Below, piece by piece: positions 7,124-26,312 of a DNA stretch of 64,000 nt. Below the pieces are notes generated by a model. That model saw nothing but the letters and a program-made list of their open reading frames with translations. It had not been told where the DNA came from and did no database searches. How positions within the stretch are numbered: the stretch's first letter is position 1; each line of letters opens with the position of its first letter. The translations under genes and the position numbers were made by a program. This stretch comes from Clostridiaceae bacterium (lineage in GTDB: Bacteria > Bacillota > Clostridia > DSM-8532): the NCBI GenBank assembly GCA_012521705.1, contig JAAYLX010000027.1, positions 81,582 to 145,581 of the forward strand, read 5' to 3'.

Positions 7124-8567
<1,444 letters not shown>

Positions 8568-8624
8568 CAGGAGTTCCACGCTCTGAAAGGATTTATTCAT
8601 GAATTTTTGAATGGTTTTGGTAAC

Positions 8625-9194
8625 TTAATTTTCATATGTATTTAGTATCCGTTCGGCTACTTCCCTTTTTGTTATCCGCATGTCCATTGCCTGTTTTTCA
8701 AGATACCTGTGAGCCTCTTTTTCACTCATTCCAAGCAAGGATATCAATAAGCATTTTGCCCTGTCCACAATACGGATGTCTTCAATTTTTTGTTTCAGTT
8801 GTGTATTTTCGCTATGTACCTTTTTTATTCTGTTGTGAGCCGCCCTTGCAAGGGATAACGCAGACCAGAAAACATATTTGTTTATGGGTTTTGCAACAGT
8901 CAGAATTCCGTCCCTCTCGCATGCTGAGGCCATTTCTTCGTATAATTCTTTCTTTACAACAAGAATGACCTGAGTTATTCCATTTGAAGCCACATGGCGC
9001 GCAAAACTCTCACCTGTCTCATCCCTGAGTGGCGAATCGACAATCACAAGGTCAAAATCTCTGTCCATAAGTATTCTTCGCGCTTCACCGCAGGACTTTA
9101 CGGCGGTGATTTGACAGGCTGACATGGGGGTGAGTATATCTGAAAAGAATGTAGTTCCTTTTTCTGAACTTGAAACTATCATAATGTTTTCCAT
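8625..9194 (-). CDS. ANTAR-domain response regulator, NitR/NasT-like antiterminator (glnA-linked)
   Basis: C-terminal ANTAR domain IRIVDRAKCLLISLLGMSEKEAHRYLEKQAMDMRITKREVAERIL. Start chosen at MENIMIVSSSEKGTTF by comparison with the 15502..16071 paralog; the ORF could start at 9242. Confidence 0.88.
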   Translation of the reverse strand: MENIMIVSSSEKGTTFFSDILTPMSACQITAVKSCGEARRILMDRDFDLVIVDSPLRDETGESFARHVASNGITQVILVVKKELYEEMASACERDGILTVAKPINKYVFWSALSLARAAHNRIKKVHSENTQLKQKIEDIRIVDRAKCLLISLLGMSEKEAHRYLEKQAMDMRITKREVAERILNTYEN

Positions 9195-9238
9195 TCCCGT
9201 GCCGCCTTTCTGCCATGGGTTCAAGGAGTCGGTCATCT

Positions 9239-10558
9239 TCATACAAAGTTGAAATATCTCTTTTTATAGAACTCAGCTTTGTTGATCGCCTCTGAAAAAT
9301 CCTCGGCTTCTTTCTTTTTGAAGGAAAGGTATTTTCTAAGCAACTCTTCCCCTATCACACCTTTAACGAAACTGCTCTCTTCCGCAAGGCTGATTGCCTC
9401 ATTCATACTTGTCGGAAGCGGTGTAAGCGTTCTGGTCAGGTTTTCATCCGCAGTATATAAATCCACATTGGCGGCGGAAGGCAAAGCCAGGCCTTTTTCT
9501 ATACCCTCCAAACCTGCTGCGATAATAAGAGCATACGCAAGGTATGGATTTGTTGAAGGATCAGGGGAACGAAGTTCCATTCTTACCTTTTCCCCGAAAG
9601 CGGCGGGAATTCTTATAAGTTGTGAGCGGTTCTGGTGGGACCATGAAACGTATGCTGGAGCTTCAAACTTGCCAAGCCGCTCGTAAGAATTGGCAATCGG
9701 GTTTAAGAAGATGGTTATTTCGGGGGTTCTTGCAAGAATCCCTGCAATAAAGCTTTCAGCGACATTAGAATCGCCTTCCACTATATTTTTGAAAACGTTC
9801 AGACCGTTTTTAACAAGCGAAATATTAACGTGCATCCCGCTGCCGGGGCAGTCAAGCAAAGGTTTCGGCATAAATGAAGCAAACAGGCCATTACGTGCTG
9901 CAATTGTTTTTACAACTGTCTTGAATGACTGCAAATTATCGGCACTTGAGAGCGCATCGCTGAATTTGAAAATTATTTCATTCTGTCCCGGTCCCTGTTC
10001 ATGATGCGAGATTTCAGGTTTAATCCCCATTTCTTCAAGGGTCAGACATATCTCACGCCTAATATCACCGCCGCGGTCAAGAGGGTACATATCCAGATAT
10101 CCTCCCTTGTCAAGCGGGGTGTCTGTCGGATCTCCATCCTCGTTGGTTTTAAAGAGATAGAATTCACATTCAGCTCCGACTTTGCACACATATCCCATTT
10201 TATCGCATCTGGCTATGACCTGTCTCAGAATATTCCTGCTGTCGAGGGCATACAGGGTACCGTCAGGATTTTTTATGTCGCAGTAGAATCCGATGACTCT
10301 ACCCGGGCCCGGGCGCCATGGCATTACCATCAAAGTTGCAGGATCGGGGACCAATACCATATCGGACTGGACTATATCCCTGAATCCGCGTATGGCGTGA
10401 GCATCAAAAGTAACTCCGTTTTCAAGAGCAGATTCCAGTTCGTCAGCCATTATAGAAATTCTTTTCTGCGCTCCGAAAAGGTCACAGAAATTTAACCATA
10501 TGAACCTGACATCGTTTTCCTTTACAAAACTTAATACTTCGCTTGCAGTATAATTCAA
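9239..10558 (-). CDS. glnA: Glutamine synthetase, type I family
   Basis: ECEFYLF, EQGPGQNEI, PGSGMHVNISL, RIPAAFGEKVRMELRSPDPSTNPYLA. TTG start with AAGGGGG upstream. Confidence 0.93.
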   Translation of the reverse strand: MNYTASEVLSFVKENDVRFIWLNFCDLFGAQKRISIMADELESALENGVTFDAHAIRGFRDIVQSDMVLVPDPATLMVMPWRPGPGRVIGFYCDIKNPDGTLYALDSRNILRQVIARCDKMGYVCKVGAECEFYLFKTNEDGDPTDTPLDKGGYLDMYPLDRGGDIRREICLTLEEMGIKPEISHHEQGPGQNEIIFKFSDALSSADNLQSFKTVVKTIAARNGLFASFMPKPLLDCPGSGMHVNISLVKNGLNVFKNIVEGDSNVAESFIAGILARTPEITIFLNPIANSYERLGKFEAPAYVSWSHQNRSQLIRIPAAFGEKVRMELRSPDPSTNPYLAYALIIAAGLEGIEKGLALPSAANVDLYTADENLTRTLTPLPTSMNEAISLAEESSFVKGVIGEELLRKYLSFKKKEAEDFSEAINKAEFYKKRYFNFV

Positions 10559-15501: not shown

Positions 15502-16071
15502 TTAATATTCATATATTTTCAGAATTTCCTCGGCCACCTTTCTCTTTGGCAACCTCATATCCATGGCTTGTTTTTCAATATATCTGTGGGCCTCGGCTTC
15601 AGTCATGGAAAGATTAGAAATCAAAATACACTTGGCTCTGTCCACAATTCGGATATCTTCAATTTTTTGCATCAGCTTCAGGTTTTCTTCCCTTATCGCC
15701 TTGATCTTTTTACTTGTCGCCGAAGCCAGTCTTAACGCATTCCAAAGCAAAGAATTGTTAATTGGTTTTGCTATTGTGATAACGCCGTATTCCTCAACCC
15801 GGTAGGATATCTCATCAAAGACTTCAGATTTAACCAGCAGAATTACCTGGCTCGTTTTTTTCACGGCAATGTCCCTGGCAAGATTTGCGCCGAATTCGTC
15901 CGGAAGAGGAGAATTTACGATGCACAAATCATAGTCTTTATCAATCAAAACCCGCCTCGCTTTTCCGGCGTCAGAGACAGAGTCGATATCTTTAACGGAC
16001 GCTTTCTGCAATATCTTTGTCAAATATTCAGTACTTTTATCTGAAAATGATACAATTAGCGCACTGTCCAT
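15502..16071 (-). CDS. ANTAR-domain response regulator, NitR/NasT-like (glt-operon-linked paralog)
   Basis: IRIVDRAKCILISNLSMTEAEAHRYIEKQAMDMRLPKRKVAEEIL. Clear paralog of 8625..9194. Confidence 0.9.
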   Translation of the reverse strand: MDSALIVSFSDKSTEYLTKILQKASVKDIDSVSDAGKARRVLIDKDYDLCIVNSPLPDEFGANLARDIAVKKTSQVILLVKSEVFDEISYRVEEYGVITIAKPINNSLLWNALRLASATSKKIKAIREENLKLMQKIEDIRIVDRAKCILISNLSMTEAEAHRYIEKQAMDMRLPKRKVAEEILKIYEY

Positions 16072-18556: not shown

Positions 18557-20062
18557 CTATTCCCCCGCATGCTTGATTCCCAATATCTCAAGCTCTTTCT
18601 CATTAAGACCCACACCTCTTAGCATGAGCCGGTTGCCCTTAAGGGCTTCTATTGAGTTAATGCCCATACCGCCCATCATTTCTTTAATTTCGTGTTTCCA
18701 GGCGGTTATGAGATTGACAAGTCTCTTATATCCCAGATTGGGGTTAAGGCGCTTTACAAGTTCCTCTTTTTGGGTTGCAATACCCCAGTTGCATTTACCG
18801 GTATGGCAGCTACGGCACAAATGGCATCCAAGGGCAATCAGAGCCGCAGTTCCTATGTAGACTGCATCAGCACCAAGAGCAACTGCCTTTACGACATCGG
18901 CACTGGAACGGATACTGCCTGCAACCACCAGGGAGACATTATTGCGGATACCCTCATCACGGAGCCGTTTGTCCACACTGGCCAGCGCCAGTTCAATGGG
19001 AAGCCCCACATGGTCACGAATACGTGTGGGAGCAGCGCCCGTTCCTCCCCTGAATCCGTCAATGGCAATTATGTCAGCACCGCTTCGTGCAATTCCGCTC
19101 GCAATGGCGGAAACATTATGCACAGCGGCAATTTTTACTATGACAGGCTTCGTATAGCCGGTTGCTTCCTTCAGGGAAAATACCAGTTGCCGCAAATCCT
19201 CTATGGAATAAATGTCATGGTGTGGCGCAGGAGATATGGCGTCGGAACCCTCGGGTATCATACGGGTTTTTGAAATATCCCCGACTATTTTTGCTCCGGG
19301 GAGATGTCCTCCGATACCGGGTTTAGCGCCCTGGCCCATTTTTATCTCAATTGCGGCGGAACTGTTAAGATACGCCTTGTGAACTCCAAAACGTCCGGAT
19401 GCTACCTGTACAATTGTGTTTTTGCCGTATTTATAGAAGTCCTCGTGGAGGCCACCCTCACCGGTGTTATAAAGAATACCGAGTTCGGAAGCAGCCCTTG
19501 CAAGGCTTTCATGTGCGTTATAGCTTATTGAGCCATAACTCATGGCGGAGAACATAACAGGGACCGAAAGCTCTACATGGGGAGGCATAACTTTCTTTAT
19601 ACGGCCGTTCTCGTCCCTTTCAATATTCTGGGCTTTGGAACCAAGCAGGACCTTGGTTTCCATAGGCTCTCTCAAAGGGTCTATTGAAGGGTTTGTGACC
19701 TGGGAAGCATTGAGCAGTATCTTGTCAAAATACACGGGATACTTTTCAGGATTTCCCATGCTTGACAGCAAAACTCCTCCACCCTCGGCCTGCTTATAAA
19801 TCTCCTGAATACTTTTTCCGGACCAGTTAGCGTTCTCCTTGAAGGTATGATCGGTTTTTACAATTTTCAGGGCCCTTGTCGGGCACAGGGACACACACCG
19901 GTGACAGTTCACGCATTTGGAATCATCTGCCACCATCTTTTTGATATCCTTCAGATATTCATGAACTTCGTTTGCGCATTGCCTCTCGCACACGCGGCAG
20001 GCGATGCAGCGGTCATAATTTCTTACCACTTCATATTCTGGATATATGTAATTAACAGCCAT
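18557..20062 (-). CDS. Glutamate synthase central/FMN-binding domain with N-terminal 4Fe-4S clusters (archaeal-type)
   Basis: CIACRVCERQC, CVNCHRCVSLCP; GQGAKPGIGGHLPGAKI; DGFRGGTGAAPTRIRDHVGLP; CHLCRSCHTGKCNWGIATQ. Confidence 0.93.
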   Translation of the reverse strand: MAVNYIYPEYEVVRNYDRCIACRVCERQCANEVHEYLKDIKKMVADDSKCVNCHRCVSLCPTRALKIVKTDHTFKENANWSGKSIQEIYKQAEGGGVLLSSMGNPEKYPVYFDKILLNASQVTNPSIDPLREPMETKVLLGSKAQNIERDENGRIKKVMPPHVELSVPVMFSAMSYGSISYNAHESLARAASELGILYNTGEGGLHEDFYKYGKNTIVQVASGRFGVHKAYLNSSAAIEIKMGQGAKPGIGGHLPGAKIVGDISKTRMIPEGSDAISPAPHHDIYSIEDLRQLVFSLKEATGYTKPVIVKIAAVHNVSAIASGIARSGADIIAIDGFRGGTGAAPTRIRDHVGLPIELALASVDKRLRDEGIRNNVSLVVAGSIRSSADVVKAVALGADAVYIGTAALIALGCHLCRSCHTGKCNWGIATQKEELVKRLNPNLGYKRLVNLITAWKHEIKEMMGGMGINSIEALKGNRLMLRGVGLNEKELEILGIKHAGE

Positions 20063-21150
20063 TACGATTTTCCTTTCTCAAGTGTGATAATTACTCCTTC
20101 GCCGCCTTTTGGTGACCAGACTCTGTCCAAGTCATTCTGAATAACTCTTATTGCAGCTTCTTCACTGGCAACGTAAAACATGTCATCTTTTTCTCCCACC
20201 ACCATACTGCGAAGCTTGAGTCTGTCATTGAGGGCCATAAGCCCGCCCTCAAAGCCTACAATTATGGAGAAGGGCCCGGTAATTAACAATGAATCGAAAG
20301 TACTTCTTAAAAATTCAAGCTCTTCCCTTTCTTCCTGCGGTTTCCTCTCTATTGTTGACCAGAAGGGAGCTGCGATAACCGAGCAGACCTCCTTTAAAGT
20401 AAGTCCTTTCTTTCTGTTAAGATAATCGATAATATAGGTAATTACTTCGGTATCTGTCTGTAAAGTGCATTTGTATCCATACATTTCAATTGAACGGCGG
20501 TTGGCATCATAGGAAGATATTTCACCGTTATGCACCACTGAATAATCAAGCAGTGCAAAGGGATGGGCGCCTCCCCACCATCCAGGAGTATTTGTAGGGT
20601 ATCTTCCATGGGCTGTAAAGCAATATCCCTCATATTCCTCCAGACGGTAGAAACGTCCCACGTCTTCGGGATATCCCATTGCCTTGAATACACCCATGTT
20701 CTTTCCGCTCGAAAAGACATACGCACCCTTTATGGACGTGTTAATCCTGAAAACACATTTAACTACAAATTCTCTCTCATCCAGCTGACTGCTGGCAAGT
20801 TTGGTCGGCAGCGGTGTGACAAAGTATCTCCATATCAAAGGTTCATCCTTAATCTGCGGTACCTTACGGGTAGGTATTTTCGAAAGGTTTATTATGTCAA
20901 AATGCCTTTCTAAAAACTCTTCACATTCCTTTTTGGCAGCAAAGTTGTCATAAAACATGTGAAAAGCGTAGAAATCCTTGTATTCCGGATAAATACCATA
21001 GCCTGCGAACCCTCCGCCAAGTCCGTTGGAACGTTCGTGCATAACAGATATGGAATCTATGATAAGCTCGCCGGAAAAGCGTTTTCCCGATTTCGAAAAG
21101 ATACCCGATACTGCACACCCTGATAAATTTCTGAACATTCCTTCTCTCAC
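20062..21150 (-). CDS. Glutamate synthase, class II glutamine amidotransferase subunit
   Basis: LSGCAVSGIF; AHGRYPTNTPGWWGGAHPFALLDYSVVHNGEISSYDANR. GTG start refined at 21150 with GGAGG upstream. Confidence 0.9.
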   Translation of the reverse strand: MREGMFRNLSGCAVSGIFSKSGKRFSGELIIDSISVMHERSNGLGGGFAGYGIYPEYKDFYAFHMFYDNFAAKKECEEFLERHFDIINLSKIPTRKVPQIKDEPLIWRYFVTPLPTKLASSQLDEREFVVKCVFRINTSIKGAYVFSSGKNMGVFKAMGYPEDVGRFYRLEEYEGYCFTAHGRYPTNTPGWWGGAHPFALLDYSVVHNGEISSYDANRRSIEMYGYKCTLQTDTEVITYIIDYLNRKKGLTLKEVCSVIAAPFWSTIERKPQEEREELEFLRSTFDSLLITGPFSIIVGFEGGLMALNDRLKLRSMVVGEKDDMFYVASEEAAIRVIQNDLDRVWSPKGGEGVIITLEKGKS

Positions 21151-21166: not shown

Positions 21167-21296
21167 AAAAAAATAAGGCATTCATCACATAGTACAAATA
21201 AGGGCACACAGCCAAATAGGCTTGTTTGCCTGTAACTATCTGATGAACGCCTTTGTTCATATGGCTTATAATACTATAATCCAATATTTGTGTCAA
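21167..21296 (-). promoter_or_regulatory. Leader A: sigma-A promoter (TTGACA-17-TATTAT), 5'-end hairpin TGAAC-AAAGGC-GTTCA (21244..21259) overlapping an intrinsic terminator (21167..21253), upstream of the glutamate synthase operon
   Basis: 13-bp stem AAGGCGUUCAUCA/UGAUGAAUGCCUU followed by AU7; the hexaloop hairpin is mutually exclusive with it. Confidence 0.8.
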
Positions 21297-21431: not shown

Positions 21432-21519
21432 TTGACATTGTTTTAACGCCATGCTAATCTTTTTTCATACAGCAAAGGTGCTGTGGATTTAATTTGTCCG
21501 CGGCACCTTTGCTTTTTTT
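21432..21519 (+). promoter_or_regulatory. Leader C: sigma-A promoter (TTGACA-17-TAATCT), 5'-end hairpin ACAGC-AAAGGT-GCTGT (21469..21484) overlapping an intrinsic terminator (21472..21519), upstream of asnA-glnN
   Basis: GCAAAGGTGCTGTGGA pairs fully (with G.U pairs) with TCCGCGGCACCTTTGC, followed by T7. Confidence 0.85.
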
Positions 21520-21613: not shown

Positions 21614-22621
21614 ATGAGTCAATTGACAATACCAAAAGGGTACAAATCACTGTTAAGCCTGTATGATACCCAAAGTGCAATAGGAAGGATAAAGAGGATT
21701 TTTGAGGATAATCTTGGCAAAGCCCTTAATCTGAAAAGGGTCTCAGCACCATTATTCGTTCTTGCCAACACAGGAATTAATGATGACCTTAACGGTGTTG
21801 AACGTCCTGTTGAATTTGATATTAAAGAAACCAAAGGCTATGCCCAGGTTGTACATTCATTGGCAAAATGGAAACGCCTGGCACTGCATAAATACGGATT
21901 TCCTGTAGGTGAAGGTCTATATACCGACATGAACGCCATTCGCCGCGACGAAGATATGAGCAATCTCCATTCAATATACGTAGATCAATGGGATTGGGAA
22001 AAAGTTATAGACCGCGAAACAAGAAATGTTGAAACCCTGAAGGACACGGTGAGAAAAATAGTAGGTGTTATATGTGACACTCTTGAAGAACTCAAAAAGC
22101 TTTATCCGGTCATTACACTGGATCTTTCAAGGGAAGTATCATTTATAACCACACAGGAACTGGAAGATATGTACCCGGCCCTTTCACCCAAAGAACGTGA
22201 AAACGAATATTTAAGGGATCATAAAACTGCTTTTATTATGCAGATCGGAGATACATTGAAATCAGGCATCAAACATGACGGAAGGGCACCTGACTATGAC
22301 GACTGGAAACTCAATGGCGATATCCTTTTCTGGAACGACATTTTAGGATGTGCTTACGAAGTATCCTCCATGGGTATTCGTGTAGACAGGGATTCATTGG
22401 ATGAACAGCTCTCCAAGGCGGGATGCGACGACAGACGCAGTCTGGAGTTCCATAAGATGCTTCTTAATGATGAACTGCCTTTAACCATGGGCGGTGGAAT
22501 AGGACAATCAAGAGTATGCATGCTTCTGTTGCAGAAAGCCCATATAGGTGAAGTTCAGGTATCGGTTTGGGATCAGGATACCATTAAGGGCTGTAAAGAA
22601 GCAGGAATTGAATTGCTTTAA
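21614..22621 (+). CDS. asnA: Aspartate--ammonia ligase
   Basis: YDTQSAIGRIKRIFEDNL, VERPVEFDIKE, YTDMNAIRRDED, YVDQWDWEKV, MGGGIGQSR. Confidence 0.95.
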   Translation: MSQLTIPKGYKSLLSLYDTQSAIGRIKRIFEDNLGKALNLKRVSAPLFVLANTGINDDLNGVERPVEFDIKETKGYAQVVHSLAKWKRLALHKYGFPVGEGLYTDMNAIRRDEDMSNLHSIYVDQWDWEKVIDRETRNVETLKDTVRKIVGVICDTLEELKKLYPVITLDLSREVSFITTQELEDMYPALSPKERENEYLRDHKTAFIMQIGDTLKSGIKHDGRAPDYDDWKLNGDILFWNDILGCAYEVSSMGIRVDRDSLDEQLSKAGCDDRRSLEFHKMLLNDELPLTMGGGIGQSRVCMLLLQKAHIGEVQVSVWDQDTIKGCKEAGIELL

Positions 22622-22639: not shown

Positions 22640-24751
22640 GTGTCAAATAATAATAATAGTCATAATATAACCGAAATATTTGGCAGTATGGTATTTGGGG
22701 ATGCCGTTATGAAAGAACGGCTGCCAAAAGATATCTATAAAGCTCTCAAGAAAACCATTGCCAACGGAACACATCTGGAACTTGACGTAGCCAATGTGGT
22801 TGCCACTGTTATGAAAGATTGGGCTATCGAAAAAGGAGCTACCCATTTCACCCACTGGTTCCAGCCCATGACAGGTGTTACCGCAGAAAAACATGACAGT
22901 TTCATTGTTCCCGACGGCAGCGGTAAAGCCATAATGGAGTTTTCAGGAAAAGCCCTCGTAAAAGGTGAGCCTGACGCATCAAGCTTCCCTTCCGGAGGCT
23001 TGAGAAGTACCTTTGAAGCCAGGGGTTATACAGCATGGGATCCTACCTCTTATGCTTTTGTAAAGGGCAATACTCTGTATATTCCCACAGCTTTCTGCTC
23101 ATACAGCGGAGAAGCCCTGGACAAGAAAACTCCCTTGCTCCGTTCCATGCAGGCTCTCAACAAGCAGGCGCTTCGTGTCCTTCAGTTATTTGGCGTTACT
23201 GATGCAAAACGCGTGGTGTCATCTGTAGGACCTGAACAGGAATACTTCCTGATAGACAGGGATGTATATTTGAAAAGGCCAGATCTTATGTACTGCGGAA
23301 GAACTCTGTTCGGCGCACGCCCGCCAAAAGGACAGGAAATGGAAGACCACTACTTTGGTACCATTAAACAGCGGGTTTCAGATTATATGCGCGAACTTAA
23401 CGAGGAACTCTGGAAATTGGGAGTATATGCAAAGACTGAGCATAATGAAGTTGCTCCTGCACAGCATGAGCTTGCGCCCATTTACTCAGAATCCAATATT
23501 GCAACAGATCACAACCAGTTGGTAATGGAAATGATGAAGAGTGTTGCGGCAAAACACAACCTTGCTTGTCTGTTGCATGAGAAACCTTTTGCAGGAGTAA
23601 ACGGCAGCGGAAAACACGTTAACTGGTCTGTCGCCACTGACACAGGAATAAACTTGCTTGAACCTGGTGATACGCCGTTTGAAAATGCTCAATTCCTCCT
23701 TTTCCTTGTAGCAGTAATCAAAGCTGTGGACGATTATCAGGATCTTATGCGTGTTTCTGTTGCAAGCGCTGGCAACGATCACCGCCTTGGTGCCAATGAA
23801 GCGCCTCCTGCAATAGTTTCTATCTTCCTTGGAGACGAACTTACTGAAATACTGAACGCTTTGGAAAACGACACATTATATACAGGCAAAGGCCAGACTT
23901 TAATGGAAATCGGAGCAACAGTGCTTCCTCATTTCCCGAAGGATACAACCGACCGAAACCGTACATCACCCTTTGCCTTTACAGGAAATAAATTTGAATT
24001 CCGTATGCTTGGTTCAGCCTTTTCAATAGCAGGACCCATTATCGTGCTCAACACAATAGTTGCCGAAGTGTTGTCACAATTTGCAGACGAACTTGAAAAG
24101 AGCACTGATTTCAAGGCGGATCTGAGCAAGTTAATCAAAAGGACCATTAAAAACCATAAGCGTATCATTTTCAATGGAAATGGTTATGACGCCGCCTGGG
24201 TGAAAGAAGCCGAACAGAGAGGGTTATCCAATCTGAAAACAACACCCGAAGCACTGCCGGCCCTCATTCATCCGAAAAATGTGGAAATGTTTGTCCGTCA
24301 TGGAGTATTTTCAGAGCACGAACTTCATTCACGGTATGACATTCTGCTTGAAAACTACTCAAAAACCATTAATATTGAAGCTCTTACAATGATAGACATG
24401 GTAAACAAGCATGTAATTCCAGCCGTGATTGACTACCAGAACGAACTTGCCGAACTGGTGCTTCGTAAAAAGGCAGTAAGTCCTGACATTGCAACAACTC
24501 TTGAGGAAAACCTCCTGAGTAAAATATCCAGACTGTCTGTAAGCCTTGAAAAGAGACTGAATCATCTGTCAGAACAAACCATCGCAGTCAGGGATATTAA
24601 AGACAATCTGGAACTTGCCAAAGCATACCGTGAAAAGGTTTATATGGCGATGAGCGAGCTGCGTCTTGTAGTTGATGAGCTTGAAATGTTAATCGGAAGC
24701 AAGCATTGGAAATTGCCTACATACGCTGAAATTCTGAACAGCGTAAACTAA
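22640..24751 (+). CDS. glnN: Glutamine synthetase, type III
   Basis: About 700 aa. [69 protein letters not shown]. Confidence 0.95.
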
Positions 24752-25085: not shown

Positions 25086-25820
25086 TTATTTCTTCTCACC
25101 ATAGATTACCGGCATTTTGCGCTTATGGTGGCTTGCATTGTGATACCTTTCAATAATTGCCTTATCTTCTTCGCTGACTTTGCCGGTAAGCAAAAACTCG
25201 TCAATCTTCTTATATGTTATTCCCATTTCACTCTCATCGGTCTGTCCGTCAAAAAGTCCTGCGGAAGGCGCTTTGGTGATAATGGATTCAGGAGCGTTGA
25301 GGTAGCGCAGGAATTCGTAAATCTCGGTTACCGTCAAATCTGCAATGGGGTTAAAGTCATAGGCACTGTCGCCCCATTTTGTAAAGTAGCCCATGTAGCC
25401 CTCACTTCGGTTTCCCGTACCCGCTACGAGCCTGTTTTCGCTGGCAGCCACAGTATAAAGAGTTGTCATGCGCAGGCGTGGAGCAATATTTACAAGTGCC
25501 GTATCATTTACAGTGGTCGCGCCAACAACTGCGTCAAGGAATGTCGAGCGCACTTGGGTCAGATCCACAACTCGCTGTTCAATTCCAAACTGTTTTGCAA
25601 CAGCTTCGGCGTCTTTTTTGTCCTCTTCATAGTTTCTCCTTGAACCGCAGGGCATAATAATTCCAACCGTATTGTCACATGCCTTCTTGCAAAGAATACC
25701 CACCAGTGCGCTGTCTTTTCCGCCACTGTTGCCGTAAACTATGCCGCTTGCATTGGAAGAAGCAAGCACCTCCCGGATAAACTCAACCCGTTTTATTGTT
25801 TCAAGTGCATAATCTCTCAT
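25086..25820 (-). CDS. nadE: NAD synthetase, ammonia-dependent type (no glutaminase/nitrilase domain)
   Basis: YGNSGGKDSALVGILCKKA, TGNRSEGYMGYFTKWGDSAYDFNPIADLTVTEIYE. Start refined to MRDYALE with AAAGGAG. Confidence 0.92.
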   Translation of the reverse strand: MRDYALETIKRVEFIREVLASSNASGIVYGNSGGKDSALVGILCKKACDNTVGIIMPCGSRRNYEEDKKDAEAVAKQFGIEQRVVDLTQVRSTFLDAVVGATTVNDTALVNIAPRLRMTTLYTVAASENRLVAGTGNRSEGYMGYFTKWGDSAYDFNPIADLTVTEIYEFLRYLNAPESIITKAPSAGLFDGQTDESEMGITYKKIDEFLLTGKVSEEDKAIIERYHNASHHKRKMPVIYGEKK

Positions 25821-25906
25821 CTTCAGCTCTCCTTTCAATATATCCGGTATTACGGCAGAGCGCCGAAGCCGGATTTATGTTTTCGTACTTCAGGCCAGAA
25901 TCAAAC

Positions 25907-26011
25907 AAAAAGGTGCTCATCACATAACGCATTCAGCTAACCGCAATAACAGATCCGGTGTTATGGCTGATACATTATAGGATGAACACCTTTGTTCAAT
26001 TATAAATATTA
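25907..26011 (-). promoter_or_regulatory. Leader B: hairpin TGAAC-AAAGGT-GTTCA (25983..25998) overlapping a long terminator-like stem (25907..25993), upstream of nadE; possible -10 TAATAT at 26006..26011
   Basis: AAAGGUGUUCAUC pairs with GAUGAGCACCUUU(UU), and an extended inner stem AUAAUGUAUCAGC/GCUGAAUGCGUUAU. Confidence 0.72.
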
Positions 26012-26084
26012 CAAACTAAATTTTATCAGATAACAAAGCATATATCAACAGTGCATTAACTACAATACATCCATATTTCATGAC

Positions 26085-26312
26085 TTATAATGTTGAAGCA
26101 AAATGCTCCATCGCCTGTTTTAATTCGTCTTCTGCTTCAGGCTTTATGACAGCAAAAAACTCAGGCATTTTTCTCTCAAGATAAGCCTTGTCAAAAGTTC
26201 CTTCCGCCTGACGGGCAAAACTTTCCTCCAATAATTTTCTGGCCTCTTCTTTTTTATCGTCCTTTACCCGTTCCATAAAAAAGTCATAAAACATCTTTTG
26301 ACCTGGATTCAT
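26085..26312 (-). CDS. Small conserved hypothetical protein (75 aa)
   Basis: Complete ORF with RBS-like AGGAATACT; no recognised family. Confidence 0.6.
   Translation of the reverse strand: MNPGQKMFYDFFMERVKDDKKEEARKLLEESFARQAEGTFDKAYLERKMPEFFAVIKPEAEDELKQAMEHFASTL

Follow-up and report, generated by a model that had tools for sequence, protein, structure and literature searches.

The window analyzed here is a 64,000-nucleotide stretch of genomic DNA from an uncultured member of the Clostridiaceae, and it contains nadE (positions 25086..25820, minus strand), which encodes a short, ammonia-type NAD synthetase of 244 aa. The gene has an ATG start at 25820 with an AGGAG site, and its product matches the Pfam family NAD_synthase at 6.7e-68. 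The first-pass annotation described this enzyme as lacking a glutaminase domain, and the Pfam results agree, in that the protein is a stand-alone synthetase domain with no CN_hydrolase match. A second NadE encoded by the same genome possesses both synthetase and CN_hydrolase glutaminase domains. Three features, all on the minus strand, are recognized in the leader of the short nadE: the best sigma-A-type promoter candidate, predicted as TTGATA-17-TAAAAT (26020..26048); a hairpin with a six-base loop, TGAAC[AAAGGT]GTTCA (25983..25998), identified by folding and a shared sequence block and regarded as a putative, P2-like antiterminator; and a long intrinsic terminator (25903..25993), whose 5′ arm, AAAGGTGTTCATC, lies within the hexaloop and the 3′ side of the hairpin stem, and whose 3′ arm is GATGAGCACCTTTTTGTTT. 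Directly upstream of the leader is a small ORF of 75 aa (26085-26312, minus strand) without a Pfam match.

The leader of nadE had been reported in the first-pass annotation to share a 5′ block and a 3′ block with the leader of the glutamate synthase gene gltS, and to form an even longer inner stem. These observations hold. The 5′ block, TGAACAAAGGYGTTCATC, occurs exactly twice in the 64 kb, at 25998-25981 (minus strand) before nadE and at 21259-21242 (minus strand) before gltS, against a chance expectation for the window of 0.16 even when three mismatches are allowed. The 3′ block is exact in gltS and carries one mismatch in nadE, and the inner stem of nadE folds as claimed, with a minimum free energy of about -43 kcal/mol. 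The two blocks are not independent, since they pair with each other as the arms of a single terminator; in both leaders the 5′ block can also close on itself to form a hairpin of 5–6 bp with the loop AAAGGY. This hexaloop was not named in the first-pass annotation. In nadE it consists of AAAGGU on a stem of 5 bp, and has A as its first and G as its fourth base (A1/G4), the signature of ANTAR targets; such targets need A1/G4 loops that overlap a terminator (PMC3369931). The hexaloop and 3′ arm of the nadE hairpin double as the 5′ arm of the long terminator, and the two structures are mutually exclusive. Folding favors the terminator over a hairpin-enforced fold by 17–20 kcal/mol (~18 in nadE), so that something must hold the hairpin if nadE is to be transcribed efficiently. 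No Rfam family was found at the leaders at strict or lax thresholds, and no match exceeded a gathering score.

A scan of the window for hexaloop hairpins whose loop or 3′ side serves as the 5′ arm of a terminator yields three sites with AAxGGx loops, before nadE, gltS and asnA (21474, plus strand), while shuffled windows average 0.27. The gltS element, ATGAAC[AAAGGC]GTTCAT with a terminator ending in TGATGAATGCCTTATTTTTTT, occupies 21167..21260 (minus strand) and is supported by the block match, folding and the scan; its predicted promoter, TTGACA-17-TATTAT (21268..21296, minus strand), has a -10 box that ends 13 nt before the hexaloop. The gene itself (20062..21150, minus strand) encodes a glutaminase-type subunit and is the first of a gltS-glnA-ANTAR cluster that extends to 7124. 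With the listed start, 21207, the gene would overlap its own leader; a GTG at 21150 is the likely start, and the gltS proteins of relatives begin at the same MREGMFRN. The third element, missed in the first-pass annotation, is TACAGC[AAAGGT]GCTGTG with a terminator ending in CCGCGGCACCTTTGCTTTTTTT (21468..21519, plus strand), and was found by the scan ahead of asnA and glnN. Its stem, CAGC/GCTG, differs in bases from the GAAC/GTTC of the other two and is equally paired. It is divergent from the gltS element, and the same element in the same divergent layout is seen in loci L340 and L350, and also in L138 and L197. A predicted promoter with an extended TG, TTGACA-17-TAATCT, precedes it (21432..21460, plus strand). 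The genes that follow on the plus strand are asnA (21614..22621; Pfam AsnA, 1.4e-104), for ammonia-dependent asparagine synthetase, and a glnN-type gene for glutamine synthetase III (22640..24751; Pfam GSIII_N, 1.2e-80).

Elsewhere in the same genome, asnB is also preceded by an element (G000:C54:6064), whereas none was found upstream of the glutamine-dependent nadE. The genome-wide pattern scan returned many sites with two or three mismatches, of the same order as a reversed-pattern control, and only sites with a terminator were retained. The regulon list for this genome represents a lower bound. Upstream of gdhA in the window (8522-8624, minus strand), a promoter-like TTGACA site is accompanied by a small hairpin but no hexaloop; gdhA at other loci (L117, L119, L272) does carry the element.

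ANTAR domains were matched three times in this genome, and the two matches above the curated cut-off both lie inside the window. One receiver-ANTAR regulator (8625..9242, minus strand), in which the receiver Asp is present, directly follows glnA (9239..10558, minus strand), the type I glutamine synthetase gene that is its partner; this glnA-ANTAR pair recurs throughout the class. The other regulator (15502..16071, minus strand) lies between the gene for the gltS GXGXG subunit and carA, and its phospho-acceptor Asp is replaced by Asn. Both proteins match the solved structures of a mycobacterial antiterminator, AmiR and EutV. An alignment of 32 regulators, from related loci (L132-L302) and the window, shows Asn at the phospho-acceptor position in 27, Asp in three and His in two, and most of them are therefore probably not phosphorylated in the usual way. 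The sequences suggest that the Asn-bearing regulators constitute a pseudo-receiver family.

The element is distributed well beyond the window. When 32 genomes of the family were searched for exact copies of GAACAAAGGNGTTC, 24 leaders with an overlapping terminator emerged, preceding gltS, glnA, asnB, glmS, guaA, purF and nadE. Pattern matches within reading frames (L025, L026, L032, L034, L041) were discarded as chance, and so was L035, which showed no convincing terminator. With a covariance model built on the terminator (R1), variants with changed yet paired stems were added before gdhA, glnN, amtB, gatC, asnB and other genes. Across the class Clostridia, a second model (R2) was run against 392 genomes and matched 47 of them at E <= 1e-4. 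ANTAR proteins are encoded in 43 of these 47 genomes, compared with 161 of the 345 others (p = 1.2e-9), and outside the window's own family in 34 of 36 genomes with the element; a search for ANTAR genes gave no match in four element-bearing genomes (G009, G010, G238, G266). Most of 40 class-wide loci follow a common order, namely a TTGACA-17-TATAAT-type promoter, the hexaloop, the terminator, gltS-A, gltS-B, gltS-C, glnA and the ANTAR gene, which indicates that the regulator is usually clustered with its own element. Other class-wide elements head glnA-ANTAR-pyrG, gdhA, guaA with purine genes, pyrG or glmS. Leader elements ahead of glnA and glt genes, and receiver-ANTAR proteins encoded with those genes, are thus found in the window and across the class. 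Altogether, the genes under the element include gltS, glnA, glnN, gdhA, asnA/B, carAB, pyrG, purF, guaA, glmS, gatC, amtB and nadE. The names of the reference proteins for purQ, purL, purF, guaA, glmS, asnB, carB and gatA were checked against NCBIfam, and other names derive from recognizable N-termini or phmmer matches to proteins of the window. A tandem pair of hexaloop-terminator modules lies ahead of an ammonium transporter gene in L125 (1645-1762, minus strand), and in two genera (L120, L122) an element with a TTAAC/GTTAA stem precedes the gene for a protein of ~510 aa that is probably membrane-bound.

The experimentally studied antitermination targets of ANTAR proteins use two hexaloops (PMC3369931, PMC8934654), and one might suppose that the Clostridia elements are canonical targets of this type whose first hairpin is degenerate or has gone unrecognized. 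The predicted promoters argue against this. A promoter with no more than three mismatches in both boxes combined is recognizable at 58 of 63 elements, and in 36 of them the -10 box ends 13–14 nt before the loop, which would place the transcript start at the base of the hairpin stem. Assuming a start 7 nt after the -10 box, 54 of the 58 have no more than 17 transcribed nucleotides ahead of the loop, which is too little room for a first hairpin and a linker. The predicted promoter of nadE is one of the less clear cases: it is weaker than that of gltS, and its predicted start falls about 14–15 nt before the hairpin. Folding of the nadE and gltS leaders disclosed no first hairpin, and a second A1/G4 hexaloop is not enriched inside the leader (1 of 16, versus 1.2 expected). 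As far as predicted starts can tell, then, the pair of hexaloops joined by a short linker is missing, and a hidden canonical target is improbable.

Comparison of the element in its relatives reveals where sequence is free to change. The loop AAxGGx is invariant in 49 of 49 hairpins, a count to be read with the fact that every search favored such a loop, and the closing pair is always C-G. Four of the five stem pairs vary on both sides, with 98.9% of cells paired and 30 two-sided changes, and the covariation score of the stem was reached by none of 500 shuffles. Those hairpins that came from the family set were collected with a GAAC/GTTC pattern, so the variation in this part is reduced. In the terminator, 9 of 18 pairs are altered on both sides, and the sixth base of the loop changes in step with its partner in the terminator arm (C-G, U-A, A-U). 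Conservation is confined to the hexaloop and the terminator stem, while the inner region of the leader varies in length and sequence, which leaves no aptamer-like core. That last feature bears on the idea of a constitutive attenuator or insulating terminator that operates without an ANTAR protein, or of a riboswitch for a small molecule such as glutamine. The great stability of the terminator and the four genomes with no detected ANTAR gene would fit such a device, but the strong co-occurrence with ANTAR genes, the lack of an Rfam match and the variable inner region leave it very little probability. The reading in which TGAAC-N6-GTTCA at the transcript start would be the DNA operator of an ordinary repressor or activator of nitrogen genes, with an incidental terminator, is rejected as highly improbable: a perfect DNA palindrome at a fixed distance from the -10 box would suit it, but the half-sites undergo compensated change (pair 4 is G-C, A-T, T-A or C-G) around a fixed asymmetric spacer, AAxGGx, which is the reverse of what an operator would do, these same bases also vary in concert with the terminator arm, and the regulator linked to the element, an ANTAR protein, is of an RNA-binding type. 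Compensated changes in both hairpin and terminator, together with a fixed loop, point to an RNA with two alternative folds.

The first-pass annotation also proposed a search for the motif upstream of nadE in relatives. Among the 32 family genomes, the short NadE is confined to that of the window; in 30 of them, the window's included, NadE is matched in a long frame, mostly of about 650 aa, and in the window's genome this long copy is the one with the glutaminase domain and without the element. In 80 loci of the short nadE from other bacteria, the neighbors include pyrG (25), guaA (15), glnN-like genes (12), carB (10), glnA (8), ANTAR (7), purF (7) and glmS (7). Several of these loci are contiguous, same-strand clusters that begin with the element and end with nadE: element-gltS-glnA-ANTAR-carA-carB-guaA-nadE (L338), element-gltS-glnA-ANTAR-carA-carB::dapF-nadE (L340), element-glnA-ANTAR-purF-nadE (L159, L207), element-pyrG-glmS-nadE (L142), element-pyrG-aminotransferase-nadE (L195) and, with a weaker element, gltS-glnA-ANTAR-guaA-pyrG-nadE (L337). 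The carB::dapF gene (L133, 2013-5945, and L340) encodes a 1310-aa fusion of the carbamoyl-phosphate synthase large subunit to diaminopimelate epimerase, and is located within a gltS-glnA-ANTAR-nadE cluster. A model match at E <= 0.01 is present in 16 of 20 chosen nadE-bearing genomes, although a few of the weakest lack a fitting hexaloop or lie beside unrelated genes. The search thus bears out the link in that element-led clusters elsewhere close with the short nadE, so membership is not peculiar to the window's genome; a nadE standing apart with a private element is, however, seen only in the window among the nadE loci compared. Elsewhere, judging from gene order, transcription would reach nadE by reading through a longer element-led cluster.

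Taken together, the nadE leader is very probably an ANTAR-controlled transcription attenuator, and nadE part of a Clostridia-wide regulon for enzymes that use glutamine or ammonia. This agrees with the proposal in the first-pass annotation that nadE belongs to the nitrogen antitermination regulon, which gains support at the sequence level from the A1/G4 hexaloop, the two ANTAR genes in the neighboring operon, the covariation, the co-occurrence and the clusters ending in nadE. In the mechanism envisaged, RNA polymerase would start close to the hexaloop hairpin. Without a regulator, the downstream complement would capture the loop and 3′ arm, and the long terminator would form and stop transcription before nadE. 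An active NitR-like ANTAR regulator, encoded at the same locus, would bind the single A1/G4 hexaloop, hold the hairpin and block the terminator, so that nadE would be made in step with gltS-glnA, asnA-glnN and asnB; it is this joint control that would make nadE a member of the regulon. That a protein binds the loop and prevents termination is inferred, as are the signal and the direction of control; by analogy with NitR, the regulon genes would be switched on under nitrogen limitation. Points against are the single hexaloop, the four genomes without an ANTAR match, the private nadE element restricted to the window and the weak nadE promoter.

The nearest known system is NitR of Clostridium saccharobutylicum, an ANTAR antiterminator for which Stutz et al. 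(2007), as cited in PMC6316151, reported induction of GS/GOGAT genes when nitrogen is limiting. The likeness, an ANTAR protein of Clostridia inducing GS/GOGAT genes by antitermination, is drawn from the description of NitR targets in that account, which does not name nadE, carAB, pyrG, guaA, purF, glmS, asnB or gatC. Ramesh et al. (2012) likewise described ANTAR targets ahead of glutamate and glutamine synthase genes (glutamate synthase in Desulfotomaculum, among others); their search demanded two hairpins, and their main text does not mention NAD synthetase, GMP synthase, or the asparagine and glucosamine enzymes. In Clostridium thermocellum, ANTAR and glutamate synthase genes occur together (Clo1313_2030-2036) and are similarly expressed, but neither a leader element nor nadE was described (PMC4676874). 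The targets of EutV, AmiR and NasR share with the present element the A1/G4 hexaloop, a conserved closing pair, and a loop and 3′ arm that overlap an intrinsic terminator (PMC3369931, PMC8934654). They differ in having two hexaloops instead of one at the 5′ end of the RNA, and the receivers of the element-linked regulators mostly lack the phosphorylated Asp. EutV antitermination required two hexaloops (PMC3369931), and the EutV-RNA structure showed a dimer contacting one loop, so that the minimal target was redefined as a single hexaloop; how widely single ANTAR sites are used was left open by its authors (PMC8934654).

The setting is broader than first described, as a class-wide, single-hexaloop variant of ANTAR antitermination is predicted from the sequences, and this set would offer a natural collection for testing the reach of single ANTAR sites. 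With less assurance, but still as the likelier case, Clostridia would possess a minimal ANTAR switch, with one hexaloop at the transcript start, a mostly unphosphorylatable regulator encoded beside glutamine synthetase, and a broad regulon that includes nadE. Since glnA is the constant neighbor of the regulator gene, and most of the receivers probably cannot be phosphorylated in the usual way, it is conceivable, speculatively, that the signal might pass through glutamine synthetase itself.

Coupling of NAD synthesis to nitrogen status had been called unexpected in the first-pass annotation. That judgment is softened by the company of short nadE genes among glutamine- or ammonia-dependent synthetases in many Clostridia, and by published work in which PII controls a glutamine-dependent NadE and ties NAD synthesis to nitrogen status (PMC7196632). 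The coupling is therefore not new; PII acts on enzyme activity through protein contact, whereas the route here would act on transcription through an RNA element, and such a route to an ammonia-type NadE appears to be new. If this reading is correct, the nitrogen-assimilation regulon extends to the synthesis of nucleotides, amino sugars and NAD and to tRNA amidation, under a simple logic whereby enzymes that spend the nitrogen of glutamine or ammonia are tuned together, and the ammonia-type NadE would be nitrogen-tuned beside a glutamine-type enzyme that lacks the element in the same genome.
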